A stretch of DNA of 64,000 nt from Gracilaria domingensis (Eukaryota > Rhodophyta > Florideophyceae > Gracilariales > Gracilariaceae). Positions 1 to 23,864 of the stretch are shown here, one piece after another. Every line of letters begins with the position of its first letter. Within the stretch, counting starts at the first letter, position 1. Location: NCBI GenBank assembly GCA_022539475.1, contig VCMS01000099.1:1-64000 (forward strand), given 5' to 3'. The position numbers and the translations under genes are program-made. The notes beneath the pieces are model-generated. The model was not told the DNA's origin. It did not search any database and saw only the letters and a program-made list of their open reading frames with translations.

Positions 1-2226
1 CCCGACGATTGCAATAGTATATACAAGCCCGAACAGCCGCTTATCTACGTGCCTTATTTTTGTTTGCCAAAAGAGAATCTCTCTGTTATTTTTGGCTCAA
101 TCTCCAAATAGTCTCTCAATCTTTAACTTGTCCGGCAAACAACACAAAAAGTTTTTGTAGCTCGGCAAAGAACACACAGGATCCCAGAATTTCACTAAGG
201 ACTTCGAGCAAGAGAGACCTGGTGCGGAGCAACGACGCGGGTCGTGCGCTGTGCCACTAGTAGTTTACCTGATGCGGATATGATTTCCCAGCCAGTAGAC
301 GTTGGCCAGTCAGATTGAACGGTCAGCGAACGCGTAAGTAAGTGCTGCAGGCTCGGGAAAACATCTTCTAAAATAAACAAATAGTCGATGTCGGCAATGT
401 GATGGCCCTATATCGACAAAGAAAAGCATGCAACATCGAACACGCTGTACCATAATCCCTTAGCTGTATCGCTCTCGTTGACCTTCCTCATTATGACACA
501 CCTCGTACCTTCGGTTTTACCTCTGTCTTTATCACTTCCCATCACCAGTTTGTTCTCTTCTTTGCCAAATAACGTTCTCCATCTACCCACTTGCTTGTCG
601 TATGACCTCTGAACCGCCTTCGCAATGGCTTTTATATGCGCCTTTCTGCGCCCCAAAATTGGCGTAGGAGCTTACCATTCTAGCGTATTCGTTGCACGTA
701 TTTAACACACCAGAGCAGAGCACCCACCCAAAATCGATAAGGTCCATGGCCATAAGCTGCCAAGCATACCTTTTGAGCTTCCGACCTTCTGATCGTTGTT
801 TCATGCTTTCTCTCGTCACCTGAATTTGTCCCCTTTTCTTATCGGAGTTCTTATCGGATGCTCTCCCTGTACAATTTCTCCATACTTTCATTCTAGTTAG
901 TTGCCTCACGTAGAGTTCATCTTCTACAATATCATTAATATCAGCTTTTTTAACCCCTTGCCTTTGAGCCTAGGATTTTACTCTCTGTCATCGAAACGAT
1001 GAGCATCACACAGCCTTAAGCTGCCTTCAGTGATTCAACAACATTCTCTTCTCAAAGTTGTTGCAAGACAGCTTTGTTTCTTCTCACTGGTGTTGGTTTC
1101 CGAGAGCGCCATGGCAATAGTTGTTAATTGTTGTTTCTGACATCACGTGCATCAGCTATATGGTCATCGTTAGATAACCTGGTTGGCGAATGTTGACTTG
1201 CTGGTCAAGCGTTGCAAAGGATGAGTGGGTAACCGGCGGAAGGGGAGGATTGTAAAGCAGAGAATGTTTGGCTGTGCCCTAAAAAGCAGCTGTGAACTGT
1301 TTCAGGCGATTTATTATATTGTGTCTGTTCTACCAGTTGAATGAAGACTTCCAATCAATTCGTGCCGTTATAAACAGGTTTATGATAGACAGTTGGGTTT
1401 GTTGTTGTTTTAGAAGACGTATAACCACGCAGGAGATTGGAAATGCAATTGAGCAGGGACGATGCAAATAGCTGCCATGATTGTTTTTGTTTTGTGTAGC
1501 AGAGACATGGTTTACATGTGATGAATTGCGGGATATAAGTAGTGCGACAGGGACGAGCTCCTGTGCGCTTGCTCTCGTGAAAGCACGGCAAGCACAATAG
1601 CTCGGATGCTGTATGGCAGTTAAAAGTGGAGTGTTATAGTTTTACTTCTCTGGCTTTGCAATTTTGAAAGAACAACACTCAACGACCGCTTATACAGAGG
1701 AAGCATTTCGAGCACCTGGTAGTCTTTTTCAAAAGCACAGAGAAGAACTCGCAAGAGCGTAGAGTCACCACTGCGCACGACCAACGTTGGTGCTCTTCAC
1801 TTGCCAAATGCGGGCAAGAGCGAAATGTACGTGCACGCACCGACGCGCACCTGTACACATCTTGTACTGAAAAGGGGCCGAAAGAGAGGCAGCACAGCTA
1901 CGCCACGTGCGCGCCACCCGCACAGCGCCGCTGTGCGCTCGGAAACAATCTATCAAACAGCGCCCATTCGCATCGGGCGGTCTCGCTCGCCGCGCGGCTC
2001 GCGAGCTGCTCATCGCTGCCAGCCGAACGCCATGGGCCGCCGCCTCCTCAATGCACGCCCCACGCCGCCGCGTAGGAGCCTAACATTTTGCAAGTGCAGA
2101 GAGTCACCGACCTGTACCGCGCCGCGCTGCGCACGTCGCGCGACTGAACCATTGACTACTGCATGTGAGTCAAGGAGTGCGGGCAGATTCAGCAGCGCTT
2201 TCCAGCCAACGCTTGCGGAGAATGGT
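1..2226. other. Intergenic, no supported gene
   Basis: I see no recognisable gene here. Two overlapping minus-strand open frames (408-656 and 583-909) are Lys/Arg-rich, end in different frames and match no family I know. From about 1780 the base composition becomes GC-rich and CpG-rich, like the promoter islands elsewhere in the window. Confidence 0.5.
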
Positions 2227-2462
2227 ATGGAGGAGCTTTTTAGTATGAGACATCCGGATCCTTACATTCCGATCTATAAGCCGGGCTCTTCTAGCTATCA
2301 ACAAAATGTGCCGCCGCCTCCGGAGGTATGTTTTGCCTTTGACTGCGCGCCGCTGCCGTCCTCATTGCGTGCTGCTGCTAACTCGCTTGCGTTCGATTCT
2401 GTGTCACTGTTTTGTTAGCTTACCCACAGTTCATGCCCCCACCGCATGAAGCAATTCAGTAG
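2227..2462 (+). CDS. Candidate two-exon small protein, unknown
   Basis: Tentative. An open frame starting at ATG 2227 runs to 2325, where CCGGAG is followed by a good donor (GTATGT). An acceptor after CCCACAG (2423-2429) restores the same phase and gives ten more codons before TAG at 2460-2462. The product would be 43 residues, rich in Pro and Tyr, with a PPPPE/FMPPP stretch across the junction. A GC-rich island lies just upstream and the decayed Notchless gene lies convergent downstream. I recognise no family. It could equally be a chance open frame. Only the splice phase and the proline-rich continuity support it. Confidence 0.2.
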
Positions 2463-2612
2463 TTCCGTACCAAAGATTCAACGGTAGATCAAGACCAAAG
2501 TGCTTCATCAACGTTTTTGTCATCTTGTACACATCATCTTTGACCACACCATCCCCCCGCCGCTTCCCCTCTGCGAATCCCCGCGAAGCTCTTGAAAAAA
2601 CAAAAACCACAA

Positions 2613-4100
2613 TCATTGGTGCTAGATCTTCAACAGCTTATCCTTGCGCGCAGGAACAGCTCTCTTCCCATCCGTACTCCAATTCACCGTGAACACCTCA
2701 TCACTATGTCCAGGCAGATCCATCTTCAATTTCTTCGTCCCCATATCCCAAACCTTGCAGGTACTATCCTTCGAACCACTCATCAACAACCGTCTATCCG
2801 CCGACCAAACCACTCCATTCACGGCCGCAACATGCCGCGGAACGTGAAGCAAACATCGCCATGTCTTGGCAATCCCAAAGTCCCTCACACTCTCATACAC
2901 CTGGCCGACGGAGCGCATATAATGTCCTACGACTTAACGCCAACGCAGTTGACCGGCTGCTGATGCCGGTCATGTGCGAACATGGGCTTGTCATTGCCTC
3001 AGAGTAAAAACATCAGAACCCACTTACCCAATCCTTTCTTGGCCGCGTACTTTGCGTCTTCATGCTTTTCCAACGCGCACCACGCTTCTTCTTCAGCGAC
3101 CAACTTGAACCGGCGTGTATCCGTTCTGCTCGTCCAGAGATGCAAACGCATCGCATATGAGCACGTAGTTGGTAGAAACCGTGATGGAATTCACCGAGTG
3201 AGCATGTGCATTTATAGTAGACACAGGATGGCCCGTATCATACCGGCCATCCTGTGTCTACTGGATGATCAGCACTCCAGATCTTTATACTACGATCTTG
3301 AGAAGCAGAATAAATAGAACCGTCCTCCACTCTACCCAGCAGTCGTGACGGCGGTATTATGTCCCGCGATCATCTTGACCGCGCTCATGCTAGCCCCGTT
3401 CCAAACTTCGACGTAGCATCTTTCGAAGCAGACACAACCAAACAACATCGTTCATCCAAATGATACGGCTTCCAACACAAATCTGCCACCCATTTGCGAT
3501 AGGAAGCCAAGCTCTTACCCGTTCCCTTCTCAACGTCCCAGATCCACACCCGACCTTCCCTTCGAAGCAGAAGCCCATCGACTCCCCTCTGGGGATAACC
3601 CCAACGCCAGCACCCAATCGCGATGATCGATAAAAGAAAGCTTCGGCAACTACGCCTTCGCACTTCACAATCTGACGCTAGTATCGCCAGACCCCGTCGC
3701 TATCAAACGACAATCCGGCGAGAAAACACGTCACCAAAACCGCCTCCTTGTGTCCCGGTAAGCTTGAACTACACCTCAAACAGACTACATGCGAAACAAC
3801 CAACAGCGGCACAAATTCCAGCTGCGCCACGCTCTCTCTCACATGCGAAGCAGCCTTCAAAGTGGCTTCCAAGCTTCGGTCACTGGCTTGCGCGAAGATC
3901 GCAGAAAGAATTCATACGGCAACGGCGTGTCATTGTTCAGAAGGTGGTTGAGGAATCCCGCGAGCTGCTTGGGCGCGGAACCAGGTCTTACGTCAAAGAC
4001 AGCGCGTAGGGGGTCGACCTCTTGCGAGAAAAGCTGCACGAGTGGGCTTGAATGCGCGCGCGGCGCGTCGTCGGCGCCATCCGACTGCACCGCGCGCCGC
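2613..4100 (-). pseudogene. NLE1: Decayed Notchless homolog (NLE1/RSA4), WD40 ribosome-assembly factor
   Basis: Notchless is a nucleolar WD40 protein that the AAA-ATPase Rea1/midasin acts on during 60S subunit maturation. Pieces of it occur here in the right order but in several frames. The NLE domain is at about 4070-3900 (LPYEFF core). The first WD repeat is at about 3870-3680 (SSSLPGHKEAVL). The next is at 3640-3385 (VWIWDVEKG, VVSASKDAT). A central part is at 3250-3030 (SVNSITVSTNYVL, then ALEKHEDAK). The last repeats are at 2918-2622 (LMSGSKDSTCKVWD, GHSDEVFTVNW). Frame changes between pieces, internal stops and a TAG at 2622-2624, where the family has Trp just before the natural terminal TGA (2613-2615), show it is broken. 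An inverted duplication at 3216-3262 interrupts it. A functional copy would be expected elsewhere because the gene is essential in yeast. Confidence 0.85.
3216..3262. repeat. Foldback inverted repeat inside the Notchless pseudogene
   Basis: 18-bp perfect inverted arms (3216-3233 and 3245-3262, AGTAGACACAGGATGGCC and its complement) with an 11-nt loop. It lies between two segments of the decayed WD40 gene and is probably a local inverted duplication. Confidence 0.9.
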
Positions 4101-7100
4101 CCAACCCGGCGAAGAGGACGGCGCAGAAGCAGACGCAGTATGGAAGACTCAACGACGACGACGCCGTGCACATGGCAAGTGACGCGTGTATTCGAGCAGG
4201 CATTCACAGCCGTAGCGGCCCCAGCCTGTGGCTCACTTGCCGCGGAGGCGTCTCGCGACACCTCCTCCAGCCGACTATTGGTGATGATCGCAACTGCCCA
4301 TTTACGTGCTGACCTTCGCAGTCCGCCATCATCTGCCGATGCCGCGCCGCTGTCACGCGACGCGTCGCACCCTCAAGGTGTGCGTGCGGCCGCTCGCAAT
4401 GAAGGCGACGTACTTCCTCCCGCCGCTTCCGTCGCTTCGGACCGGGCGTTCTCACGCCACCATGCACGCTCTCCGTCGCATCGCGCTCATTCCCCCCAGC
4501 CCCGCACGCCGTGCCTGCCTGTAGAGCGCCGCGACCGCTAATGCTGCCGGCGCTCACCGACGCGTTGCGCGACGCGCAGCTCACGTTGGCGATTTTCGGC
4601 ACCGTCAGGCTGTCGCTGGGCGTCTGGCAACGGGTAACAGCGCCTGAGCTGGTTTCCTCGCGCACGACGAAGGAAGATTATCCACATCAGTTGTGGGCCA
4701 GATTTCCTTGCATTTTTGACCACTGTATAGCGCGATCACCCACGCGCATCTGTGTGCTGCCTGCTTGCCGCTGCTGTTCTCCTCTGTGCTTGTAGGGTCT
4801 GGCTTGTCGTCGCACGAGCGACAGCACTACGACCGGTTGCCGTGAGCCTGTTGCGCATGTGCGATCGATTCGTCGCGCACGGCCTATGCTCTCCTCAGAC
4901 AGAGCCTCGAACCGTGATCCAGCGTGATTCGCAGGCGACACAACAAGGCTACGTCCTTCTTGGAGGCGCCCCGAGCCAGCCTGGCGTCGGCGTCGGCCCC
5001 CATCGGCGCCGTTGTGAACGGCAGCGCATTAAGTTCGTTTCTCGCCTTGTTTAGCGGGCTAGCAATGCCCGACAGCTGCACAAGCAGGTGTTGATCGCCA
5101 CGCCGCGAACGCGCCAGCGGCGACGGCGTGAGTGGCATGGTCTGCAAAGGCAAGCTGTCCGTGGTGAGAAACACGCTGCGCAGCAGCAGCGGCTTGTCCG
5201 ACGCGTCCGATGAAGACGCGCTGCATGGCGGCGACGAAGATGGCGACAGCGAGCGGCTGGACGGCGTGCGCACGGGCGACACGGAGTACGGCGAGTCAAG
5301 CTGTGCGCGCGAGCGCGCTCGAGCTTGCGCGGGAGGGCGAGACGGTGAGTGCGAGGCGCTTGCAGAGAAGGAGGAGGAGAAGGAGATTGAAAGAATGATG
5401 ACGGGAGAGGAAGAGAAGCTGAGGGAGGGAGAGGAGGGCGCGTTTATTGACGGCGACGGGGGCACGCAGTGCATGTTGCGGAGGATGTGGCCCGCGACGC
5501 AAGGCGAAACAGCGGCACGCGCGGGCAGCGTTTGGCGCGTTAGCATGGAGCGCCAAGTGGGCGGGTGCGTGTGGGGGCTGGGGGGGCGGCGTCGGAAAGC
5601 TGCGGACAGGCGAGAGTGGCGGCGCGCTACGCAGCGCAAGCTCAACACGTTAGTGCGCAGCATTTCAGTGGGAGAAATTCCACTTGCTTTCAGTCGCGCC
5701 TTGCTGCCCTCATTGGTATACAAAGGTATTGCACCAGTACCAACCAACTGTGTACAAAAACGCGTGTGCGGCTATTTACATCATGTCTACAGACGTTGCT
5801 CTCCCTTAAACAGTTTGTATTGTTGCTGTGTTATTCACAGACACTACGTTAGCGTTTGACTGCCCCCGCGCGCGGCCATGTACATGCTTTCAGATACATT
5901 ATGCACGAGCGAGGTTCTTGTAGCGGCGCAGCTGCCACTGACGTACAATGTTCCACCCAGCCCCCATGTTGTACTCCTCCCCCGCGCCAAACTCACTCCC
6001 CGCCTCAGTCTTCATCTCCACTTGTTCCTTCAGGTGCACCACTCGCTCGCCTTTCATTTGCTCCTGCCGCACGTCTCCAGCGTCATTCTCATCGCTGCTA
6101 TCAGCACCCTCAGTCTAGTACGCAGAGCACGCGATTGTTTAAGCCTGCAGCGGCGGCCCTGGAGACGAAAATTGTGATGGCGACGGACTTCACATTGAAC
6201 AGCGAGAGAGCGGCTGCAGGTTCCTGACACATGTAATCAAAGCGCAACAAGAGGGTATTTCTGAGGGTGGTGCCCTGCGTTCCGCCCATCGCGCCAAGCG
6301 CCCAAGATGCAACATCCACAGTCCGGTTGCCACACGTCAGCAACTGTGGAGAGCAGCGGTGTTCGCGACAGATTCAGCGGCGGCCGGCGCGACAGACGCA
6401 TCAGTTGCTTGCGATATAGCTCCGTGCCGTCTGACATGACGGCGCGACATACGCGCAATAGTTTGGACGCGGGCATCACCGCGGGGACCATAGCGAGTGC
6501 AGCGGCGGAGGCGAGATCGGGAACTGAGACCATGAAGACGGCAGCAGCTGGTTCGATGTGGCACAGCGGCGTCATAGCAGGCGGCACGCAGCCCGCCGGC
6601 CGTGGTCTTGGCAAGATTAGTCACCAGCACACCGCCTCTGTCGTCGCGTTGACACACCGCGCGCGGCCATGAGTGCGCGTGGTTCGAATGGCCGGCGAAC
6701 AGCGCGACAGCGATGATGTCTGCCCCGGCGCGCGCGCCCAGCCGCGTCGCGTGGCTCTTTGTGTCTGGTGGTCTTGAGCTCGCGAGCGGCGCGCGGTGCG
6801 CGACAAGCCAGTAGTGCGCAAGTTGGCAGCGCTGCGGCGCCGAGAAAAGGAGGGGTGGCAGCCCTCGAAATCCACAAAGCCGCGGATTGCACTTCTAGCA
6901 CAAGCCTGGATCTTACGGTGTCGATGCGCTGATCCATGCAGCCCGGCGACGGTAGCAGAGCCGAGAGATGGCAGAGAGGCTCGTCATGCAGCGCAGCGAC
7001 GAGAAAGAGCGCGGTGACGAAGGCGGCTGGCTACGGCGGTCAAGGAGGGACGATAAAGGCGAAGAATATGCCGACAGTGGCGGTGAAACCATGATCATAT

Positions 7101-7223
7101 GCAAATCGCACGGGTACGGCGGCGGTATGAGCGCAATCGTAAGCGAAGCATGCAGCGACGGCGGCCGTGGTGTATACGACTAAGAACAGAGAACACGGCA
7201 ATGGCGGCGGAGGTGGATCCACC
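4101..7223. other. Long GC-rich, CpG-rich stretch without a convincing gene
   Basis: Open frames are abundant on both strands because stops are rare at this composition. The longest is a minus-strand frame at 4884-5747 (287 codons) dominated by Ser, Pro, Ala and Arg. Another minus frame covers 6237-6614. Neither shows a domain I recognise. An E2F-like TTTGGCGCG site lies at 5531-5539, with an opposing GCGCCAAG about 15 bp downstream. The stretch could include a strongly decayed gene or a very compositionally biased protein. Confidence 0.4.
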
Positions 7224-7307
7224 AAGGTGCGGTAGCTGCGGCAGCGTGATCAAGATGCGGTACCTACGGCGGCGCGATCAAAGTGCGGTAGCTACGGCAG
7301 CGCTATT
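7224..7307 (+). repeat. 28-bp tandem repeat, three copies
   Basis: Three imperfect 28-bp units begin at 7224, 7252 and 7280. Each contains GCGGTA(G/C)CT(G/A)CGGC and the first two end in GATC. They sit just upstream of the palindrome array. Confidence 0.8.
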
Positions 7308-7528
7308 GGGGAGCGGTAGCAAAACTAAACTCATAAAGAACGCCGCAGAGACCAGCATCGCGAGAGGAGAGCGACGCGAGTTCTACGGCGCAACGACGCA
7401 CCGCCTGCAGGAATGGCGCCGCGCGCTCCATGGGCGGCGCGGAGGTTTGCTGGCGATGGGTTGTTGCAGGCGGGTGTCATCAGATATGTCGTAATGTCAT
7501 TCTGTCGTATTGGCAGCGCGCGAGATCA

Positions 7529-7953
7529 AGTTGTGTTAGGGTCGCTACCCTAACACAACTCGACCGCCCTGCCCGCGGGCACGTTACGTTTTGGCTGGAT
7601 ATGCGTGCGGTGTGTGTTTTGGGAGGTCTGTGGACGCTACCAGAATGAGGCGAAAACGAGCCCGCGGGCGGGGGGGGTCGGTCGTGTTAGGGTAGGTACC
7701 CTAACACGACCGGACCCCCCCGCCCGCGGGCATGAAATCGCACATTTTTGAAAAAATCGGCCAAAACGTGCCCGCGGGCGGGGGGGTCCGTTCGTGTTAG
7801 GGTAGCTACCCTAACACGAACGGACCCCCCCGCCCGCGGGCATAAAAAAGCACATTTTTTAAAAAACCGGCCAAAACGTGCCCGCGGACGGGGGGGTGCG
7901 GTTGTGTTAGGGTAGCCACCCTAACACAACCGATCCCCCCCACGCCGGCGGGC
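7529..7953. repeat. Array of long GC-rich palindromes, 110-bp period
   Basis: Four copies of a palindrome centred on GTGTTAGGGTA/TACCCTAACAC lie at about 7529-7560 (short or degenerate), 7660-7731, 7770-7841 and 7880-7953. The last three have centres exactly 110 bp apart (7695.5, 7805.5, 7915.5). Copy 3 is a perfect 72-nt palindrome with no loop (36-bp arms ending in GCCCGCGGGC). Copy 2 has three mismatched positions, and copy 4 has several plus a 2-nt length difference. The 38-bp linkers are A/T-rich and share CGGCCAAAACGT. The bases flanking the core differ between copies, but both arms change together, so pairing is kept. The array is bounded by an inverted AGACCTCCCAAAAC (about 7616-7628 and 7983-7996). 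Confidence 0.95.
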
Positions 7954-7996
7954 ACGTTCTGGTCACATTTTCGCACCATGCCGAGACCTCCCAAAA

Positions 7997-9584
7997 CCCC
8001 TTCCTCAACACTTTTTGCACTCATTACCATGCACCCGCCCGCGAACACGTTGGCACCGCTGTCTACGTAGATTGGCGGGATGGCAAAAAGCTGTACATTA
8101 ATTAGAGTATATCTTGAGTATTAGGAGCGCTTCAAAACGTATGAATGGAGAGCGCTGCCATTGTTCGCATAAATCTACGTCCACCAAAACCCTTTGCTAG
8201 AAGGAACATTTTGAGGCCATTCTGTAGCGTTTTGATACCTCCCAAAACCCAATCGGTTGCATTCCTTGCAACGATTTTGTTGCGAGCTCAGTACAGATCT
8301 TTTAGAGATAAATCAACTAGTTTTTTCATCCAATTGATGCTCAACCAGTAACACAATACGCGACCTTGTTACAATTTGTGTAGTTTCTGACACACTACAC
8401 TATTTAAACTGATCAAAGTGGCGAAGAGACGTACCACCGAAGCGCGCCAACACCCTCACGCACAAAAGTGGTAATGCGCCGGGATGAGATGCATAAAAAA
8501 ACAGAGTGACGACAGTATGTAGCTACTTAAATACTCGCCACCACTTTTTCCGGTGAAGATACAAATTCTACCGATGATGAAGATAAGGTATTATATAATA
8601 GCATGAGCGCTTCCGCTCTAGCGTTCAATTTATATATCTGAATCTAATTTGTTCGTTGTGACGGTCTGACAAACAGCGATGAAGGCCTCCAACGACCATA
8701 TAATACCGGAATTATAGGGGTAATAGAGCGAGCTCTCTGCGAAACACCATAAATAACTAAATGGAGTCCTGATAGGCTAACTACTACATTATTTTCAGAG
8801 GTTTAGAGAACGGGGTTTGTAGCAGCTCTTATATGCTAAATTCATTCAGTATAAAACTCTATGAAACAGAATGGCGACGAGAGTCGTCGCGGAAAGCAAA
8901 ACAGATGGTAGGCATGAAAACCGTTCAGCCCTGTGTGCTTGAGCTGGTAGCACATGATTATCGTTCCGATTTTGAAATCGTATCGCTTCACCTTCCGTTA
9001 ACAAGGCCTGTCACCAACAATACAAGAGAAGACATTAATCGACGTGTTGCGGAGATGCCGTAAAAGGCTGCCAATGGTGTTAGTTTTTCTTCTGTTGAGA
9101 GTCGAGATAGAACCTCAGACTCCCAGTTCTAGAGCTATGAATTCCTTTCCACGACTTTGTCGAGGAGCGTTAAAGGCTTCAATCTGCCACCGAAGGGACG
9201 AAATAGAGTTTTCATTACATCATGCGCCACGATTGCACCTATAACACGTCCAAGCGACGCCCGAGTACTGAGAGAAAACTGTTTTGATTGAAGCCCTGTC
9301 CTGCGATCCCTATCAGATTTCAAAGAATTCCTTTACGAAAGGAAAACCATGTCAAGGTTTTTGTATGCTTTGGCCTCCATCATTCAAAGGAGATCGGCCT
9401 TTGCGAAGGTTCCATTCAGTGACCTGCCTTTCTTCGACGTGAACAAATCTATATGTAAACCTTTGGCAAAAAAGTTGCATTGCATTGGGGATAGATTTGC
9501 GTTTGTAAAGTTGCTGATTTGAGTACGTATCGTTCGAAATAAACGTGACGTGGATGATTCTATTGCAGTGAGTAGCGTCTCTGA
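7997..9584. other. Intergenic, AT-richer, no supported gene
   Basis: Only short open frames are present. A further CCTCCCAAAACCC (8239-8251) resembles the motif bounding the palindrome array. Parts next to the transposase remnant may be older transposon sequence, but I cannot show it. Confidence 0.4.
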
Positions 9585-11318
9585 CTAGAGGTTTTCGATT
9601 TCTGGAGTATTAGTCAGCTTCAATTTGTCTGGATGCAAGTTGCGTAACTGTTCGAAGAGAGCTCTCCTTGTTCCCAACAGACTGCATGGAAACAACCTCT
9701 GGATCAATCCTACCGTCAAGGGGGTTTCGATGAACGACGGAATAAGAGATATGTAATCAGAACGCTTGAGAGTACCGCCTGAGATATACTCTCCCTCGCA
9801 AGACATATACTTCTTCCTGCCTCGTCTTTCTTTGCATATTCTAGAATAACTGAGTATGTATCTCTAACGCTTTTGGTTTGGTCTTGAGAGGGTCCAGTGA
9901 ATGAAGTAAGAATACTACTGCATAAAGATGAGGGAGGGGCCTCGAATCTATGACCGGAGCTCCCCGTTTTGGTCCCATGAAGAGTTAACAGAATGTCTTT
10001 AGCCTCAAAAGTATCCGCACGAAAACTTGCAGAGGATGGCACACTCGACTTAGTTGGTCTTCGCCGATGAACTGAAAACTTTCTGCGTGAGATTTAGAAT
10101 TGGCATCAGGACTTGACGAAGAGATTCTTGAAGGATTTGCATCCTGGACTCGCGTAGAGACTTGCTAGAAACGAATGGCATTGCGTCTGCTTCAGATGCG
10201 GAAACCTCGATCAGTGTGGTAGGGAAGTATGCCACTACTGTGAGGTCATCACGGATGCACTCACGGCGAAGCTCGTCCGAGAAGTTGAGAAATATGAGGT
10301 GAAGAGGATAGGCGGTAACCGATGTTTGCTTTAGAGTTGTTGAAGACTTATCGGTGTATACCTGCAGAAGACCTACGAAAGATTCACTGTAACTTATTTC
10401 TTGGGAGTACCACACTATTCTACTATCCAACGAGCCCATAACCATTTCCTTAAGTTTTGAGGTGGCGTCTCTTGCGATAGAGCCGGACATGGGGTGAGAT
10501 ATTTTCGTGGAGTGGGTCTGAGGTATAGGGTGGAAGAATGTTTTTTCGTTGTTAGCCAACTGGAGCTGTTTCACAAGTGTCTGAACGGGATCTCTCGTGT
10601 AGAGGGTGGCGCTGAACTTACATCCTTCTGGCGAGACAGTTCTTCGATTGAAACCGTCCTTTGAAGCGTATCGTTCGAAAATGGCCTTCTTCAGTTCTGT
10701 ACAGCACTTGGAACTTGTTATGGTCTCGTTGAATCGCTTTTGCGAGAATCGCGGGTCCCGAAGTAGCCCAATTAGCTCGTCTGCCTCACGATGACCAAGG
10801 TTGGAAGCTACTGAAGCCAGACAAACCGTGAGATAATCCATATGCAAATCACCGAGGGCCTCCTCAGAAGGCACTGGGCGGGAACTGCTTCCGTGTTCTC
10901 GCTCTAATGACGCGGGACCCGGGGAAGGAGAAACACAATGCAAAGTGTCCGGAATGGGAGGGGCGCACGGAGTGGGGTCGACGATGTCCTCGGACACCGA
11001 AGGCTCGGGAAGGCGACAAGGGGCAGTGACCGTTTCGGAAGATGCGGGCGCGGGCGCGGAAAGCTTGAGACGCTTGCTTCTCCGAATGGGCAGCCTATTG
11101 TCGTCTTCCAGCGCTGCTTTCAGACGAAACGGGCAATGGTTGACATGCTGTTGAAGAGATAAGACTCCTCGGCGAGTAACGAAGGGGCACCCACGCTTCT
11201 TATGTGTACAGTAGTAGACCATGGGAAGAAGAAATGAACGAGAAACGACGACAAAGACTGCAAGGGAAGGGCGTCCGAAGGGAGAAGGAGGTCGAGCGAC
11301 AGTCAAGATCGACGTCAT
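9585..11318 (-). pseudogene. Decayed Plavaka/CACTA-like transposase
   Basis: The main open frame is 10050-11318 (422 codons). A better start may be Met33, just before a Cys/His cluster (YYCTHKKRGCPF..., then QQHVNHCP) that looks like a degenerate N-terminal zinc finger. A disordered region follows. Then comes a segment resembling Plavaka-type transposases of the CACTA superfamily: LLQVYTDKSSTT, YPLHLIFLNFSDELRR and VVAYFPTTLIE, then an R-x10-ILQESLRQVLMPI helix. In that family this block precedes the catalytic core. The frame stops at 10050. Scattered frames at 9585-10042 carry what may be the continuation, so the copy is truncated and probably dead. The family call rests on motif recall. A related CACTA or KDZ-type family is possible. 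Confidence 0.5.
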
Positions 11319-11591
11319 GCTGAGAACGGAGAATATATTTTGAGTTTAAATCACGTGCTTTCGTTCAAAAAGGAACGTAGGTACACGACGACCTCAACAC
11401 AAGGGTGTACTTCTCGTAATATCTACCACTGGTTATAAACCTGTGGTTTTCCAACGTTGTAAGCTGTACACCTGTCCAATCTCGCACAGAAAAATAAATC
11501 TCTTCCTTCCGCCGCCGCCGCCGCGCCTCCGACGTCCGACCTTCCGTCACCGTCGTGATCCGTGCCATCCACATCCTCGCGTTATACTCCG

Positions 11592-11666
11592 CTCCGTCCT
11601 TCTTTTTTCCTCCCTCTACTTTATGGAGGCTCCTTAAAGTAGAGGGCGGAAAAAAGAAGGACGGAG
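11592..11666. repeat. Foldback inverted repeat, 32-bp arms
   Basis: Arms 11592-11623 and 11635-11666 are complementary at 31 of 32 positions around an 11-nt loop. They begin with CTCCGTCCTTC and end with GAAGGACGGAG. No coding role is seen. The surrounding 11320-11890 holds nothing else I recognise. Confidence 0.95.
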
Positions 11667-11892
11667 TCATCCGTATCTCACGGATGTATTCCGTGCAGTC
11701 TATTCGTACGTTCTTCCATATCTCTCCACGTATCTTTGCTCTAAACTAACCAATCCTCACCACGTTTCTTCGCGCTCTGCGACATGCAAACGGCAGGAAA
11801 TAAGCTAATCACCCTCAACTTCTTCTATTTGCTCAAGATATAGAACGAGTTGAAGGGTGAAAACGGGAACCTGGTAACCCAAAGCGACGACT

Positions 11893-12743
11893 GTAAGTAC
11901 GCGACCAATGGTTCATTTCGTTGCGCCATAGGCTCTAGTTTCGCCTCTTGCGCTACTTTTCAAAAGTAGCGCAAGACGCGAGAAGCTAGAGCCTATAGCG
12001 CAACAAACCAAGTTGGTTTCTTGGCGATCTTGGATCTCTGACTGTTCGGGATAGACGATTCTGGTACTTGGTTGGGACATAGGCTGCTTTCTCGTTTATC
12101 GCATCTTGCGGTATGTTTGCTACATGGGCATTCTTGGTGTCCTTGCTTGTGAGTTCTCGCTTCGACACCTTTCGCGCTTTACGATGATGGTGGGCTGGTA
12201 ATCTAACCGATCCCTTTCCTTCTTCTTCTTCCTTTTGCGAGTTACTAGGTCCTTCGACTTTTCTAGCGCAACGTTTCTGTTCTGTTTCATCAATGGTACG
12301 TTCTATCGCATTTCAAATGTACCCAACGGAGCATTGACTAACTTATGGATACTCTCTGCTTGCGTATACAGGTAAACGACCAATTTCATTTCGTCTCTCA
12401 AGATCGATGTCTGACTGTTCGGGATAGGCGATTCTGGTGCTTGATTGGGACATAGGCTGCTCTTTCGTTTATGGCATCTCGCGGTATGTTTGCTGCATGG
12501 GCATTCTTGGTGTCCTTGCTTGTGAGTTCTCGCTTCGACACCTTTCGCGCTTTACGATGATGGTGGGCTGGTAATCTAACCGATCCCTATCCTTCTTCTT
12601 CTTCCTTTTGCGAGTTACTAGGTCCCTCGACTTTTCTAGCGCAACGTTTCTGTTTTGTTTTATCAATGGTACGTTCCATCGCATTTCAAATGTATCCAAC
12701 GGATCTTTGACTAACTTATGAATACTTTCTGCTTGCGTATAGA
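11893..12743 (+). repeat. Tandem duplication of a ~373-bp unit, first copy split by a hairpin
   Basis: Unit 2 is about 12371-12743, and unit 1 is about 11893-12370. Matching landmarks such as CTGACTGTTCGGGATA are 373 bp apart (12038 and 12411), and long blocks are nearly identical (the part around TTTCGCGCTTTACGATGATG, for example). Relative to unit 2, unit 1 carries an extra hairpin of roughly 100 bp after TTCATTTCGT. No gene is recognised in the unit. A 76-codon minus frame at 12469-12699 is probably incidental. Confidence 0.85.
11903..12020. repeat. Foldback hairpin inserted in duplicated unit 1
   Basis: This is an imperfect palindrome centred near 11960. The inner arms GCGCTACTTTT / AAAAGTAGCGC are perfect, the next segment (GGCTCTAG / CTAGAGCC) pairs with small mismatches, and the outer TTGCGC / GCGCAA extends into ACCAA / TTGGT. 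It is absent from the matching position of the second tandem unit, so it looks like an insertion or a template-switch product. Confidence 0.85.
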
Positions 12744-12790
12744 GGTAAACGGATTTTGATGCGGACGTAGCTCACGAGTTGCAGGTGCAG

Positions 12791-12842
12791 GTTCCTCAAG
12801 TAGGGAACCATGCATCTAGGCATGGTTCCCTACATGAGGAAC
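12791..12842. repeat. Foldback inverted repeat, 23-bp arms
   Basis: Arms 12791-12813 and 12820-12842 match at 22 of 23 positions around a 6-nt loop (ATCTAG). It lies immediately before another hairpin. No gene is seen between here and the retroelement breakpoint. Confidence 0.95.
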
Positions 12843-12843
12843 G

Positions 12844-12876
12844 GAGAGGATGAGGCGCTTCGCGCCTCATCCTCTC
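12844..12876. repeat. Perfect 15-bp hairpin with 3-nt loop
   Basis: GAGAGGATGAGGCGC (12844-12858) pairs perfectly with 12862-12876 around TTC. It abuts the preceding foldback repeat by 1 bp. There is no U-tract, so a terminator role is not indicated. Confidence 0.9.
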
Positions 12877-13241
12877 GAGGTGCGTATTTGTTCTACCGAT
12901 ACCGCACTATGGTGGAGGTGCCCTCTGCGGCATCTTCCGCAGATTGCGCCTACACCCGCTTCATCATGGGGAAATGGTATATGTAATATAGCGAAGTAGT
13001 GGTTAGCAAAAACGGTCGATAGAAGAATAGATACGAATAAAACGGTATGATTTCATAATGGACATCATCTGTACTAGCAACAGTATTCCATGCGTTGCAG
13101 GGTATCATTCCGCAGAAGGTATCGTGTAATGTGCACCTTAATGGAAACTGAACCTAGACTTCGCGAAATACCGTTCAGGTAGCCCTCGACTAAAGAACTA
13201 GCACGAGTGGAAAACCCACCAGTATTTACTGCACAGCGAAT

Positions 13242-13341
13242 CTGGACGACCCAAGCAATTATCTTCAAATTTTGAAATAATTGATCTCGATATTTTTTCA
13301 AAAAATTTACTGGACGACCCTTGCCACTTTCTGGACGACCC
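13242..13341 (-). repeat. Three copies of an 11-bp CTGGACGACCC motif
   Basis: CTGGACGACCC occurs at 13242-13252, 13310-13320 and 13331-13341, in the DNA abutting the retroelement truncation point near 13385. The complementary GGGTCGTCCA recurs at 38692-38701, and GGTCGTCCAT occurs at about 54405 and 54715. This may be the end of another transposon that inserted into the retroelement. Confidence 0.7.
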
Positions 13342-13384
13342 TCGCCAAAAACTAGCATCTGCAAGAGACAGACGTTGCTGGCCA

Positions 13385-16363
13385 GTAAAAGTCCTTCCGT
13401 AAGGTGTAGTACAACTTCCTGCCACCAGGGTGGGCTGACAACTTCGCATGGTGCGACAAATGCAGTACTCGTGACTGAAGTGAGTGCGGAACCACAATCT
13501 GTGGCCTATTTCCGACAGTTCGGATTAGAAATCCTTGGTCGTTCTCGACGAAAGGCAACTGTGCTCCACCGTTTAGACGGCTACGAATCTCCGTACAAAA
13601 ACGGTCGGTGTGCTGCTCCCGGATGAGTTCTTCTGGCTTGATTGGTACGAAAGAGCCCAGTTCGGGTTGCGTGTATGACACGGCTAAAACAGCATCGTAG
13701 ATGTCCCATTCTTCCGATTCTTCATCGGCGTCGCTCGAGCCGTCTTCCGCGAGGAAGCACGGTATCTCCAGATCATCGACTGGCGCAGCTTCAGCCGCTG
13801 TTTCCAAGCGGGACAGTGCATCAGCCTGAGTATTCAGGAGTCCTTTCTTGTAACGGATTTCGAAGTCGAATTCCGACAAGCGAAGTCTCCACCGCATCAA
13901 GCGGCCAGATGGCTCTGCAATAGAGAGTAGCCAGCGCAAGGCCGAATGATCGGTATGAACAATGAAGTGAGTTCCCGTAAGATAGGGCCGCAGTGTCTGC
14001 AGTGCCCAGACAACTGCCAAGCACTCCTTCTCGGACACCGAGTAATTCCTCTCGTGAACGTCGAGGCTTCGTGACCAATACCCAATGGCAATCGTTCGCC
14101 ATCTTCGGTGGTCTGGAACAGTGCGCAGCCAACTTGATAGTCGCTCGCGTCCGTATCGATGGCATACGGCAAACCAGCCCTGGGTAGGGATAGGACGGGT
14201 GGCGATGTCACCCCGTCAACAAGCGACGAAAAAGCCGCAGACGTGCGGTCGTCGAACGTTTCCAGGTTGACTGGCTGTCCCTTGCGAAGAAGCTCGTTAA
14301 GAGGTGCCGCGATATCCGCAGAGTTCGGAATGAAGCGGCGATAAACGTTGCACAAGCCGAGAAAAGATCGGAGTTTAGTCTGCGTCCTCGGATGCTTAGC
14401 CTCTTTGAGGGATTTCACGCGTACTTCGTCAATCGAAAGCCGTCCAGGACGGATAACATGGCCGAGATACCTGACGGTTTCGGTAAAGAACTCACACTTC
14501 TTGAGCTTAAGCGTAATGCCTGCATCGCGTAGGATTCGCATCATATCCCGTACGTGGGTCAGATGCTCGTCCAGGTTGCTGGAGTAGACAATAATGTCAT
14601 CCAGGTAAACCAGGCAAGTCTTCTACTTGAAGCGGGCAAGCAAAATGTCCACAGCACGTTGAAATGTGGCTGGCGCGTTCGTTAACCCAAAGGGCATCCG
14701 ATTGAATCGGTACAATCCTTCATGACAGACGAAGGCTGTCTTGTCACGATCCTCAGCCCTTACGGGAACTTGCCAATAGCCCCAATTCGCGTCTAGGGTT
14801 GTGAACAATTTCGCGTCGCCCAATGAATCGATGCATTCATCCATTTGTGGGATAGGATACACATCCTTGACCGTAGCCGCGTTCAACTTGCGGTAGTCGA
14901 TGCAAAATCGCCAAGACCCATCAGCTTTGGGCGCGAGCACCACCGGCGATGCCCATGGTGACTGAGCCGGCTCAATAACTCCAGCGCGGAGCATTTTCTC
15001 AACTTGAGCTTTCTCCTCTTCCCGAGCTGACGGTCCTGCCTTGTAAGGGTGCTGGGAAATGGGCCGTGTATTCGGTAGCAAATCAATCCGATGTTCGGTA
15101 ATACCAATCTTCCCGAGGGAACCATCCCACATGGGCGTGAACTCTTTGAGCATATGCCGCAATTTATCGCGGTGAGTCTCTGGGACATGACTGAAGTCCA
15201 GAGACTCAAGCTCCTGTACTGCCTTATCCTTCGTGTCAGCAGCACTCAGGTCCTTATCATTTCTGTCCGACGAGGTCGGCATCGCTTCCTTTGACAGGCT
15301 GCGGTTATTCGCATCCGACGAAGTCGGCGTAGCATCTCCCGACGAACTGTTCGGTCCAGTATTCGGTTCAGAATTGTTCCGTTCCGCCTCCCCCTCCTCA
15401 GGTTCGAGGATACCGAGGACTTCGGCCATAGAAACCTGAGTAGGCACTATAGCCGCAGGGTGCGGGAGCAGTGATCCAATAACTTGGCTCCTAATCAACC
15501 GTTGAGAAAAACGGCTGAAGTTCGCAAGCAGCACCTGAAAAGGCTTCTCGGGTTCGACGAAAACGATCCCATTCGCCAGGGCGAGCTGATGCTTCTCCTG
15601 CAACGCAGGCAACGGTTGCACCGTTTGTAAGCCACACTGTGGAGATGTTACAGTAACCCAGACCTGCGATTCGGGCGGGATGCAAATAGACCGAGCTACT
15701 CGGAGCTTTGTAGACTTCCGTTCATCGGCGGTGGGCTCCTGCGCAGCAGGCAATGGTACTTGCTTCTTCAAAGCCCTTCTAAGGGGACGCCGAACGATCG
15801 GTACGCTCGTGCCGTCTTCCATTTCGACGGTTCTTGCCCGCGGTCGAATTGATTCGACGAAGCGGTCACAGAAGTCACATCCCAAGATAACGGGCGCTGC
15901 TTGCAAACCAAGAAATCGAGCTTCACCACGTAGCGGCCGAGCCTGACGAGCAGGTCGATAACTCCCACTGTCGAAAGTGGCCGATTGTTCGCATCGGCAA
16001 TGTCAACAAGCGGCGCAGCGCGAATACGAGACCGCAGATGCGGCGGAATGAGCGATTGAACCAAAACGTTTGGACCAGCGCCTGTATCCAGGACAGACTA
16101 CTGCCGAACCATATACTGGTCGGAAACACCTAGGTCGGCGTAAACTTTGTAGTTCCGTTTCGCCATGACCAGGACTCTATCCGGGGACCGGCTATTCTTA
16201 GACCGTATCCACGGGCGACGCAAGACACCAAGGTGCTCAGAGTCGACGTCTGTAGTGGCCATTTTCCTCGAAAGGATTGTGACCGGGGAGCGAGGCTTCT
16301 CAGCCTCAGGCGCACGAAACCCCGTCGCTGGGGGCGCCTCTCCATTGCTGGAGGCTCCCTTGC
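13385..16363 (-). pseudogene. pol: Broken pol polyprotein (protease-RT-RNase H-partial integrase)
   Basis: The protease DTGA active site is near 16080, directly after an in-frame TAG (16098-16100). The frame changes once around 15900, within the protease, before LGCDF. The RT domain follows in the 14623-15906 frame: an FCIDYRKLN motif, TTLDANWGYWQVP, and FNRMPFGLTNAPATFQR. It is cut by a TAG at 14620-14622, just ahead of the YLDD catalytic motif (LVYLDDIIVYS). A one-base frame change near 14082 separates RT from the RNase H part (YSVSEKECLAVVWAL, HTDHSALRWLL, then NTQADALSR). The integrase zinc-finger region (HHAKLSAHPG, YYTLRKDFYWPA) is the last recognisable piece. At least two nonsense codons, two frameshifts and the 3' truncation make this copy non-autonomous. 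Confidence 0.85.
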
Positions 16364-18373
16364 TCAGTTTTTCTGAGCGTCGCCGCCAATCTGCGGAGGT
16401 TGCGATTCCGCAGGGGCGGCTACAGTTCCACCATTTGATGGCACCGTTTCCTGGCTTCCAGGCTGAGTCTCCGCCTTCGCACGAAGGTACGATTTGTCGG
16501 GAACACGTTCCCGCTCGGCGGGCGTTAACGACTCATACTGAGGCACTATCTTCGCCATATCCCGTATGGGCATTAAGCAATTCGGAGCGATGTGCCCTGG
16601 CCTGTAACAGGTATGACAAATAAGGTGACGAAGAAGATCCGCGTTGGGCGGTCGGCGCTCCTGTCGAGGAGCATACGGGTCCCTCCATCCAGGGCGTTGG
16701 CTTCGATATCCGCCAGAGTGCGGCACGGGCAATGCCGGGAGTTGACGTCCGGCGTACAGAGCGGGATCTACGCCGACTGTAGACTGCTCCGTCGTCGACG
16801 GCAATTCCGAACTCGGCATTGAACCATCGTCCTGTAACAGGTGTAGGTTATCATAGCCCCCTTGAACAGAACCTCGCGAGTGAGGCAGTGAGGAGTCTCG
16901 GCCTTCTACATGAAGGAGTCGGCGCGTGCGCGTCTTGATACCAGCGCGTGCTCGAGCTGCATCTCCCTCAGCTTGGGCAAATTGAACGAGTTCCAGATAG
17001 GTAATCCGGCGTTTGTTCTCCCGATAATGGGCTACCAACGTCCGAATTGATCGGCCCAGTCCATCAACAAACATCGTACACCGCTCAGCTGCGGAGAACA
17101 CGTTGCCACATCTGTGGAAAGCCTTATTGTGGCCGGTCGAATAAACGGTTTCCGACTCTTCGGCTCCTTGCTTCGTGTCTCGCAGCGCGAGTATAGCACC
17201 TTGTATCGCATTGCCTGTCGCGTAAGAGCGCAGGAGATATTGTACCGCTTCCGGCCAGCACGTAACTCCTCCTTCGGAGGGGCGAGACGACTCAGGAACC
17301 GAACTGAATTGATCTTCGGCTACACCCGTCAAAAAGTACGGCAACGCGATGTAGGCCTGTGCCTCACTCATCCGAAGTACATCGGCTTCCGCTACGAAGC
17401 GGCTAAGAAAATCCAAGACAAGAATTGGATCTTCCCCAGAGAACTTGTGGGGCTTTAGCGTGAGCTCCATTTGTCGGAGATGATTTCGCACTTTGCCAGT
17501 CCCACGTGGGGTCCTCTGTGGCGTCGTGTCATCAAGCCCATAATATCGGTACGATAGCAGCTTCCGATACAGTAAGTTTGTCGGCTTCAATTCCTTCAAT
17601 CCGAGGTGTCTCCGTCCTTTCGTACGGCCTCGTACAACACCAGAGGTGGCTTCAGTAGCCCGCGAACGGGATGCACGAGAGCGACAGCGCTCTTCCGCGC
17701 TGTCCGAAGAGTGGGTAGACGATCCCTTTTTAGGGGCCTCCTCGTCAGAAGAGGATGAAGAAGACGAGTCACACTCGACCTTGACCTTCTTCTTTGCCGG
17801 GCGATCCCGGGAACGGCGCCAGTGCTGAGAACCCTCAGAAACCGGGGCTCCCGGCGCAGCAGCATCAGATATGATGATTTGCTCGACCGTCTCCAGACGG
17901 GTAGCCAGGCGGTCCAGGCGTACAGAAGCCTGCTCGTGCAGGGCAGCCGACACCTGTCGGTGTTCCATAATCTGGTTGACATCAGACCGTAAAACACGGA
18001 CGTCGCTCGAAACATCCCGGACACCGGCTTCATCGAGCCGTTGCCGGAGTTTCGTAATATCCCGGATGAGGCCCACTTGGGAGTTCTGCAGGATGCGAAC
18101 CTGAGCGTCTAATTCACGGAGGGTATACTCGTCGGACCGCGACGACATAACGTCAACCGCTGCGGCGGCATCAGCCGCAGGTGCGGTCTCGGTTGGCCCA
18201 CGAGTGGGTGGGGTCCCGTTATCAGAACGGCGGCCACGGGAAGCCGGTTTCGGGTCGCCATTGCCTGGGACCTCCAGTGCGTCCTTCGGCAACGGAGGCA
18301 AACTTGCCGGCAAGCCGGACGAACCGGGCACAGAAGCGGCACGTGGCGCGCTACTCCTGCGACGGGACGACAT
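16364..18373 (-). CDS. gag: Gag protein of the Ty3/gypsy element
   Basis: 669 codons, fully open. The N-terminus is Ser/Pro/Arg-rich and disordered. A likely coiled coil follows at about 85-165 (heptad-like DAQVRILQNSQVG, SVRLDRLATRLETVEQII). Next is a Ser/Glu/Arg-rich linker, then a capsid-like core around 290-440 (LKPHKFSGEDPILVLDFLSRF, ending near FVDGLGRSIRTLVAHYRENK). A CCHC zinc knuckle, CHTCYRPGHIAPNC, lies near the C-terminus and should bind genomic RNA. The TGA stop overlaps a pol reading frame in -1, where a Pro/Glu-rich linker runs on toward the protease. Gag stays intact while pol is broken. Confidence 0.8.
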   Translation of the reverse strand: MSSRRRSSAPRAASVPGSSGLPASLPPLPKDALEVPGNGDPKPASRGRRSDNGTPPTRGPTETAPAADAAAAVDVMSSRSDEYTLRELDAQVRILQNSQVGLIRDITKLRQRLDEAGVRDVSSDVRVLRSDVNQIMEHRQVSAALHEQASVRLDRLATRLETVEQIIISDAAAPGAPVSEGSQHWRRSRDRPAKKKVKVECDSSSSSSSDEEAPKKGSSTHSSDSAEERCRSRASRSRATEATSGVVRGRTKGRRHLGLKELKPTNLLYRKLLSYRYYGLDDTTPQRTPRGTGKVRNHLRQMELTLKPHKFSGEDPILVLDFLSRFVAEADVLRMSEAQAYIALPYFLTGVAEDQFSSVPESSRPSEGGVTCWPEAVQYLLRSYATGNAIQGAILALRDTKQGAEESETVYSTGHNKAFHRCGNVFSAAERCTMFVDGLGRSIRTLVAHYRENKRRITYLELVQFAQAEGDAARARAGIKTRTRRLLHVEGRDSSLPHSRGSVQGGYDNLHLLQDDGSMPSSELPSTTEQSTVGVDPALYAGRQLPALPVPHSGGYRSQRPGWRDPYAPRQERRPPNADLLRHLICHTCYRPGHIAPNCLMPIRDMAKIVPQYESLTPAERERVPDKSYLRAKAETQPGSQETVPSNGGTVAAPAESQPPQIGGDAQKN

Positions 18374-22331: not shown

Positions 22332-23864
22332 ATGGCGAAGCATGATCTACTGCCAGCGGTATCGTACGAGCTCAGGAACGCCGCCCAGAAAGGCGACTTG
22401 ACCAGAGTTCGGCAGGTGCTTGAAAGCGGAGCCGACCTGCATAGAGCAGACGACTATGGGTGGAATGCGTTGCATCACGCTGCCAGCTGTGGACACATGG
22501 ACGTGGTGAAGGAACTGTTGCAGCGCGGCGCCGAACCGCATACGGAGGACCAGTATCGTCAGAATGCATTGCATATTGCCGCCTTGAAGGGAAACATGGA
22601 CGTCGTGGACGAGCTACTGCGGCACGACACCGAAGTGCATGAATCAACCAAAGATAAAGACAAGGCGTTGCGTATTGCCGCTCGGTGTGGGCAGAAAGAC
22701 AATGTGAACAAGCTGTTGCATCGCGGCGCCGACGCGCACTCTGCAACCGAAGATGGCTGGAGTGCATTGCATTTTGCCGCCATGAACGGGCACATGTGCG
22801 TTGTGAACGAGCTGCTGCAGCACGGCGTTGACGTACAGAGTGCAACGATAGCTGATGGGAATGCGTTGCATTTTGCTACCTCGAATGGACACCTGAACGT
22901 TGTGAGAGAGCTATTGCAGCGCGGGTCCAAACCATATGCTGCGACCAAAGCTGGTCAGAATGCGTTGCATATTGCCGCCCGAAACGGGCACATTGAAGTG
23001 CTGAAGGAGCTGCTGCAGCGCGGCGCGGACGTGCACAGCGCAGATCAGGACGGTAAGAACGCGTTGCATCATGCTGCCAGCGATGGACACATGGAGATTA
23101 TGAAGGAGTTGCTGCAGTGCGGCGTCGACTTGCACAGCGCAGACAGTTTCGGTCGGAATGTGTTGCATCATGCTGCCGCATACGGACAGATTGAGATGGT
23201 GAAGGATCTGTTGCAGCGCGGCTTGGACTTGCATGGCGTAGAGGACTATCGTCGCAATGCATTGCATTTGAGCGCGATGAAGGGGCACGTTGAGGTGGTG
23301 AAGGAGCTGCTGTTGCGTGGCGCCGACTTGTACAGCAAAGACAAGTACGATCGGAATGCGTTACATCTCAGCGCGATGTATGGACACTTGGAGGTGGTGA
23401 GGGAGCTTCTGCAGCGCAGCGTCGACGTGCACAGCGCAGACAACTTCGGTCGGAATGCGTTGCATCATGCCGCCCGACACGGACACATGGAGGTGGTGAG
23501 GGAGCTTCTGCAGCGCAGCGCCGACGTGCACAGCGCAGACAACTTCGGTCTGAATGTGTTGCATCATGCCACCCGAAACGGGCACTTGGAGGTAATGAAG
23601 GAGCTGCTGTTGCTCGGCGCCGACTTGCACAGTGCAGACAACTATGGTCGGAATGCGTTGCATCAGAGCGCGATGAAGGGACACCTTGAGGTGGTGAAGG
23701 AGCTGCTGCGGTGCGGCGCCAACTTGCACTGTGCAGACAAACACGGGCGCAAGGCGTTGGATCATGCTTACCGACTGGGACATATGGAGGTAGTCAACGA
23801 GCTGCGGCAGCGCAGAGCCACCGGCGGAAAAGGCACCGGTCGCTCGCGTGGTATGCGGCTGTGA
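22332..23864 (+). CDS. Ankyrin-repeat protein (about 15 repeats)
   Basis: 510 aa, and nearly the whole protein is ankyrin repeats. Fifteen 33-residue units run from about residue 12 to 495 with the consensus NALHHAA-x-GHMEVVKELLQRGADVHSAD. The first and last units are capping-like, and a short basic Gly/Arg tail (GGKGTGRSRG) follows. Ankyrin stacks mediate protein-protein contacts. No enzymatic domain, signal peptide or membrane segment is visible, so a partner or pathway cannot be named. Repeats 10-14 are very similar to each other at DNA level (HSADNFGRNALHHAARHGHM is typical), suggesting recent unit expansion. The start ATG sits right after an AT-rich leader (TTTTGTTGACATGG). The repeat structure makes long shadow frames on the other strand. 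Single exon as far as seen. Confidence 0.9.
   Translation: MAKHDLLPAVSYELRNAAQKGDLTRVRQVLESGADLHRADDYGWNALHHAASCGHMDVVKELLQRGAEPHTEDQYRQNALHIAALKGNMDVVDELLRHDTEVHESTKDKDKALRIAARCGQKDNVNKLLHRGADAHSATEDGWSALHFAAMNGHMCVVNELLQHGVDVQSATIADGNALHFATSNGHLNVVRELLQRGSKPYAATKAGQNALHIAARNGHIEVLKELLQRGADVHSADQDGKNALHHAASDGHMEIMKELLQCGVDLHSADSFGRNVLHHAAAYGQIEMVKDLLQRGLDLHGVEDYRRNALHLSAMKGHVEVVKELLLRGADLYSKDKYDRNALHLSAMYGHLEVVRELLQRSVDVHSADNFGRNALHHAARHGHMEVVRELLQRSADVHSADNFGLNVLHHATRNGHLEVMKELLLLGADLHSADNYGRNALHQSAMKGHLEVVKELLRCGANLHCADKHGRKALDHAYRLGHMEVVNELRQRRATGGKGTGRSRGMRL

Follow-up and report, generated by a model that had tools for sequence, protein, structure and literature searches.

The palindromes found in the window (the whole 64,000-nucleotide stretch analysed, located at the very start of contig C99 in a 77.9 Mb assembly of 680 contigs) form an array that is an internal part of a large, high-copy DNA transposon, and not a stand-alone element. 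The best explanation, which is probably correct, is that the array forms a palindromic minisatellite inside a Plavaka-kind transposon, related to the CMC/CACTA group, in a red alga. The ends, target duplications and copy number show that the abundance of the array results from transposition of the whole element, and a striking palindrome pattern thus finds its explanation in a mobile element, not in a new regulatory or RNA structure. The finding extends Plavaka-type elements to a red alga, the Plavaka literature being, as far as its titles indicate, mostly fungal, and no published account of this element was found in the mainly open-access literature searched. The genome also offers one long palindrome in many natural copies of varied age and context, a collection which would allow hairpin-driven loss, inversion and arm correction to be measured.

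The array and its copies in the genome

Four related palindromic segments lie within positions 7526-7954 of the window (Table 1). The units have a 110-bp period within 7649-7954 (TRF score 452), confirming the regular spacing of copies 2 to 4 described in the initial annotation, whereas copies 1 and 2 are 151 bp apart. Copy 3 is indeed an exact palindrome without a loop, of 74 instead of 72 nt, and the compensatory arm changes that had been named are present in the sequence as described: the bases beside the core are C:G in copies 2 and 3 and T:A in copies 1 and 4, and the third arm position is T:A in copy 3 only. The description as near-perfect 72-nt palindromes needs correction for the other copies, copy 1 being symmetric only in its inner part and copies 2 and 4 carrying arm mismatches.

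Table 1. Features of the palindrome array and of its host transposon in the window
Feature	Position	Strand	Description
Left, putatively exchangeable half (type A)	1-7391	.	homology with C241 copy (L041 96%; L048 89% over last 310 bp)
Copy 1	7526-7563	+	inner palindrome only, 17-nt arms, 94%; symmetric over inner 38 nt
Copies 2-4, bracketed by an outer inverted repeat (TTTTGGGAGGT...ACCTCCCAAAA)	7616-7997	+	79% self-complementary
Copy 2	7660-7731	+	35-nt arms, 94% complementary, 2-nt centre
Copy 3	7769-7842	+	exact loopless 74-nt palindrome
Copy 4	7890-7941	+	24-nt arms, 92% complementary, 4-nt centre
Right half	9105-13374	.	common to C8 copy at 90-96%
Plavaka-type transposase, N-terminal part	10050-11318	-	422-aa frame, PF18759 E=4.4e-6
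Further hairpins of the element	11592-11666, 11916-12007, 12791-12842	.	counterparts in C8 copy
Right terminal inverted repeat TGCAAGAGACAGACG, right end of element	13360-13374	+	shared boundary of copies

A search of the assembly for further palindromes, suggested by the initial annotation, found the core dyad GTGTTAGGGTANNTACCCTAACAC at 1,115 places in the 77.9 Mb genome, in arrays within transposon copies, and the reversed control pattern at none, so that chance is excluded. With a 521-bp query covering the array, at least 28 full-length matches of 96-100%, the window included, were obtained among the 40 of 611 candidates that were scored, and 13 other loci match the window at 99.4-99.8% over 3.0-3.5 kb. 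Between two and seven units were detected per array. By hand count, 12 of the 19 exact right ends of the transposon on C1-C9 have an exact-core array 4.5-6 kb inside; the remaining seven lack an array at the usual place, and three of these have one 9-12 kb inside. A separate MITE with ends of its own was considered and rejected, an exact search for the outer repeat with a unit giving three places, and array flanks being common to the larger element.

It is hardly credible that the palindromes are an assembly artefact or telomeric or centromeric sequence. The array does contain TTAGGG, and some near-identical copies share flanks (L044/L045, L046/L047) or lie near contig ends, but arrays of differing unit number are found in distinct flanks, between terminal inverted repeats (TIRs) with matching target duplications. 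Arrays are also dispersed over many contigs, which does not fit the centromere role once proposed, and the suggested link to telomeres is not supported, (TTAGGG)4 being absent from the assembly, which may itself lack chromosome ends.

The transposon that carries the array

The right boundary of the element is shared, 31 of the 40 listed copies ending at 13374-13377 and seven more by 13393; the two that continue past it are the window itself and a C286 copy with the same flank. The left end CGTCTGTGTTCTGCA is found in the C241, C162, C250 and C6 copies, and the TIRs are 15 bp long and imperfect, with 12 of 15 positions agreeing as inverted repeats when aligned by eye. Exact left ends occur at 491 places and exact right ends at 459, and the reversed controls at none. 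An identical 2-bp target duplication flanks nine of ten end pairs that were hand-picked by the end patterns, the exception being C9a (AA vs GA); with the AA duplication of the C6 copy, it is present in 10 of the 11 copies tested, which measure 6.4-14.1 kb by coordinates. In the C241 copy the left TIR lies at L048:6704 and window base 1 matches near L048:7711, placing the left TIR of the window copy an estimated 1 kb or so beyond the contig start and giving a full length of about 14.4 kb by extrapolation, most of it within the window. Of the roles suggested initially, a foldback transposon core came nearest the truth: the array does lie inside a DNA transposon, but not a classical foldback element, its termini being short imperfect TIRs.

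Several minor features were noted in or beside copies of the element. Hairpins lie at 11592-12842, near its right end, and the same script (arms of at least 14 nt, loop of at most 8 nt, few mismatches) finds none in 40 kb of other window sequence, 20001-60000. A 373-bp tandem duplication at 12033-12751 of the window is single in the C8 copy and apparently also in the C27 copy. Retrotransposon-like open reading frames on the reverse strand at 13352-18373, one with a reverse transcriptase match, adjoin the right end, and the transposon may have inserted into this retroelement. At L053, two transposon left ends (4272-4738 and 5297-6001) stand in opposite orientation about 560 bp apart.

The transposase frame of the window scores just above the cut-off for PF18759 (26.6 vs 26.3 bits), and at 96.7% identity it corresponds to residues 1-424 of the L099 transposase (1,100 aa), which itself matches the domain at E=7e-19; broken matches to the L099 protein extend to its residue 723 and, in the window, to about 9169. 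The Plavaka domain is present at at least 123 places, all 123 scored of 672 candidates having matched, and many of the frames are near 1,100 aa. In the available part of the published description, the second D and the last E of the Plavaka transposase enclose a C(2)C and an H(3-4)H motif (PMC12730594); CHRC and LHNxHLG, candidate counterparts assigned by eye and with an H-pair spacing that matches inexactly, are invariant between L099 and L100. The latter carries, at 675-4007 on the forward strand, the 1,110-aa open frame of a second Plavaka family, 44% identical to L099, and no palindrome of the array kind in its 5.8 kb examined.

As in Plavaka of the CMCT group, so far as the accessible text describes it, the algal element combines a PF18759 transposase domain with 2-bp target duplications (PMC12730594). 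The same partial text gives 2-bp duplications for the fungal PlavakaA and PlavakaB, 2-3 bp as the diagnostic range, and fungal termini of 5'-TGT..ACA-3' or 5'-CATCA..TGATG-3' (PMC12730594). The algal element differs from that account in its host, in its internal palindrome array and in its termini, CGTCTGT..ACAGACG, as derived from four left ends and the shared right boundary. It is therefore called Plavaka-type, and not PlavakaA or B, because the termini differ and those cited belong to fungal families.

For 3,030 bp the C8 and C27 copies follow L099 at about 98% identity, after which they diverge, and their transposase frame, which has in-frame stops further up, enters the first palindrome and ends at its TGT-TAG. 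Thus, in the array-bearing copies examined, the 3' end of the transposase gene is altered, and these copies look non-autonomous. No palindrome was found within about 1 kb past the long open transposase frames of L098, L099 and L101, and the array may thus be dispensable.

Arm symmetry and the conserved half-sites

Arm matching was assessed in 203 units (122 distinct) from 54 loci at 53 places; three units without the 24-nt core are left out of the counts of two-sided and one-sided changes and of arm pairs, and a reduced set for the arm-match statistics leaves out L010-L024. At position 1 beside the core, and likewise at position 3, the arms match in 120 of the 122 distinct units (73.8 and 97.2 expected, respectively), while positions 6 and 7 match in only 36 and 42 of 122 (expected 52.0 and 57.2). 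The low values arise because of a one-base arm difference, GGA vs GAC, which spans positions 5-7 and is found in 57 of the 122 distinct units; in 25 units the arms agree at these positions, and the other 40 are of neither type. When the 16 innermost positions are compared in 119 distinct units, two-sided changes occur 56 times but comprise four kinds, confined almost entirely to units one, three and four of type A and their relatives, or about three related unit lineages; one-sided changes occur 109 times and comprise 40 kinds. One of the latter, a GTGG core change, is common to L008, L077, L083 and L087 (three places and C8:433k). Exact loopless palindromes of at least 60 nt number 17 among 201 units, and every one stands third in an array of the type-A/B group. 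When the two central bases are disregarded, 24 of 200 units have at least 30 exact arm pairs; 23 are again that third unit, and the other, at L078, is a unit of different lineage with 36 exact arm pairs around a GG centre.

The matched arm changes are real but few. Four two-sided against 40 one-sided kinds, together with a single lineage of long exact palindromes, show that pairing is not strictly maintained, and ongoing selection to keep a hairpin paired is only weakly indicated. The proposal that pairing is conserved while sequence varies is favoured by the matching at positions 1 and 3 and by the L078 unit, and the one-sided changes and the GGA/GAC difference speak against it. The few matched changes are probably old events passed on to many copies, and either a pair of mutations or a single template switch within a hairpin could have produced them.

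An improbable alternative is that the array is transcribed and that selection for an RNA hairpin or for small RNAs has led to compensated arm changes. Matching at positions 1 and 3 far exceeds independence, the L078 unit is extensively paired, and the C8/C27 transposase frame runs into the first palindrome, so that a transcript could carry hairpins. The ratio of two-sided to one-sided kinds argues otherwise, as does arm identity, which at 0.864 within units is barely above that between units of one locus (0.861) or between loci (0.847). Among 400 mismatched pairs, G.T accounts for 72, A.C for 104 and other combinations for 224, a count from 112 units that is pseudo-replicated and not proof, but that also speaks against the RNA reading. 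A known RNA family was sought, and none of the 42 Rfam matches listed reaches its gathering score.

It is quite possible, if somewhat less than probable, that the array has no function and is a passenger of the transposon, its symmetry kept solely by template switching in hairpins, or quasipalindrome correction. Template switching homogenises inverted-repeat arms, according to the portion of the literature available (PMC8604942), and the known quasipalindrome hotspots share with the array, as far as their description extends, the property that arms become alike. In addition, the inner arm positions are the most symmetric, and the losses and inverted spacers described below are typical of hairpins. 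Such hotspots are, however, a mutation process and not an element, and in the array an arm difference persists in roughly half of all distinct units. This persistence, together with the inherited one-sided core changes, suggests that correction is rare, and a core that varies less than the spacer across loci is not easily explained by it.

The variation of the core was measured in 51 distinct dyad-to-dyad segments from 26 loci, a set that leaves out type-A and type-B loci except L009, L025 and L037, and also L008, which is the same place as L075. The core halves have 17 changed letters among 1,120, the GC blocks 32 among 1,013, the arms 113 among 1,408 and the spacer 172 among 1,929. By column, 9 of 22 vary in the core and 33 of 38 vary in the spacer (Fisher P 3e-4, with related sequences treated as independent), and among 23 representatives less than 95% alike the core is still lowest, at 11/504 vs 124/866. 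The 11-bp half-sites GTGTTAGGGTA, with about six-fold less variation than the spacer, are thus the most conserved part of the array. From this low variation, the inverted GTGTTAGGGTA pairs can tentatively be regarded as a putative dimer-type site to which a protein of either the element or its host would bind.

Motifs with stem-loop potential, repeated in both direct and inverted orientation, also occur in the soybean Tgmt* CACTA/EnSpm elements, of a related transposase group, where the motif clusters are taken as protein-binding sites in the part of that report available (PMC2613891). The algal element differs from CACTA/EnSpm, as there described, in having a 2-bp and not a 3-bp duplication and no CACTA termini, and in that its cluster lies about 5 kb from the right end with none found near the TIRs. 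Two elements were scanned for GTGTTAGGGTA half-sites with up to two mismatches: each has a single hit outside the array (about three are expected by shuffling), and none lies near the TIRs, so that repeats close to both TIRs in the CACTA manner are not seen in these two. The array position is unlike that of known transposase-binding subterminal repeats.

Hin/Gin-type sites have paired half-sites around a 2-bp centre, a geometry shared by the array. Its two 11-bp half-sites, a central dinucleotide that is GC, GG or CC in 116 of 119 units, and the inverted spacers would all suit a crossover site for a serine-type recombinase, as in invertase sites, but this is very improbable. The genome has no PF00239 match, where the control was positive in 10 of 14 genomes, and three other frames of the element have no Pfam match at E 0.01, which largely refutes the recombinase site of the initial annotation in its serine form.

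Instability of the array and its two flanks

Two spacers are joined by a single GCCCGCGGGC at three of nine places scanned, namely C2:404k and C8:37k, with one junction each, and C2:574k, with three. Such junctions are as expected if a palindrome were lost by slippage between its 10-bp direct repeats; insertion in the opposite direction, with the GCCCGCGGGC junction as the ancestral state, could also produce them. Of 16 places with C8-type flanks, judged by hand, 10 have their spacers in normal orientation, four have them reversed (L006, L085, L093, L094) and two are mixed (L091, L106), although at least three of the reversed or mixed places have a common flank rearrangement and the independent events are thus fewer. 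Together with subfamily breakpoints at the array, the lost palindromes and inverted spacers fit hairpin-driven instability. Within elements, array units are gained, lost and inverted, and to judge from the junction signatures the most likely cause is hairpin folding of the palindromes in replication or repair. The earlier suggestion of a hairpin or cruciform is thereby supported indirectly, through losses and inversions. The foldback-like Galileo, in the part of its description available, likewise has long inverted repeats and, in one copy, tandem repeats, and it shows structural turnover and a link to inversions, but it belongs to the P superfamily and its inverted repeats are its termini, whereas the palindromes here are internal (PMC4168063).

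It is conceivable, though unlikely, that the transposon uses the array as a joint for exchanging or flipping its left half. In six lineage comparisons, homology to the window copy breaks on the left at 7392, 7441 (two lineages), 7582, 7585 and 7614, at the array, and region 1-7391 is replaced by different DNA in other subfamilies; the C6 copy breaks at 7154, with an apparent internal deletion. Window positions 7530-8175 match C8 5690-5094 in reverse at 72%, much of this being the self-symmetric array, and in relatives of type A the DNA that flanks the array towards the transposase is 62-72% similar, in reverse, to the DNA beyond the array in C8. The breakpoints and reversed flank match, from few lineages, would suit such a joint: the transposase-bearing right half would be constant, and the left half, able to carry captured gene pieces, would possibly be exchanged via the palindromes. 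If so, a single transposase end would mobilise changing cargo.

The left half of the window copy contains a WD40 propeller fragment on the reverse strand, at 2622-2918 (PF00400, E=2e-13) and 3385-3663 (no Pfam match), which is apparently a captured piece of a host gene, possibly one resembling Notchless. The left half of the C8/C27 copies holds three frames of 372, 341 and 367 aa (L095 3762-4880, reverse; L097 459-1484, reverse; L097 2539-3642, forward), which match no Pfam family at the E 0.01 threshold and are possibly accessory proteins or cargo. Elsewhere, the window contains long uninterrupted frames, among its other contents being a 510-aa frame of tandem repeats on the forward strand at 22332-23864, ankyrin-like by eye. 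A red alga as host is made likely by these long frames and by the genome as a whole, which gives 14 phycobilisome-linker matches, four on the probably plastid contig C680 and ten on eight other contigs.
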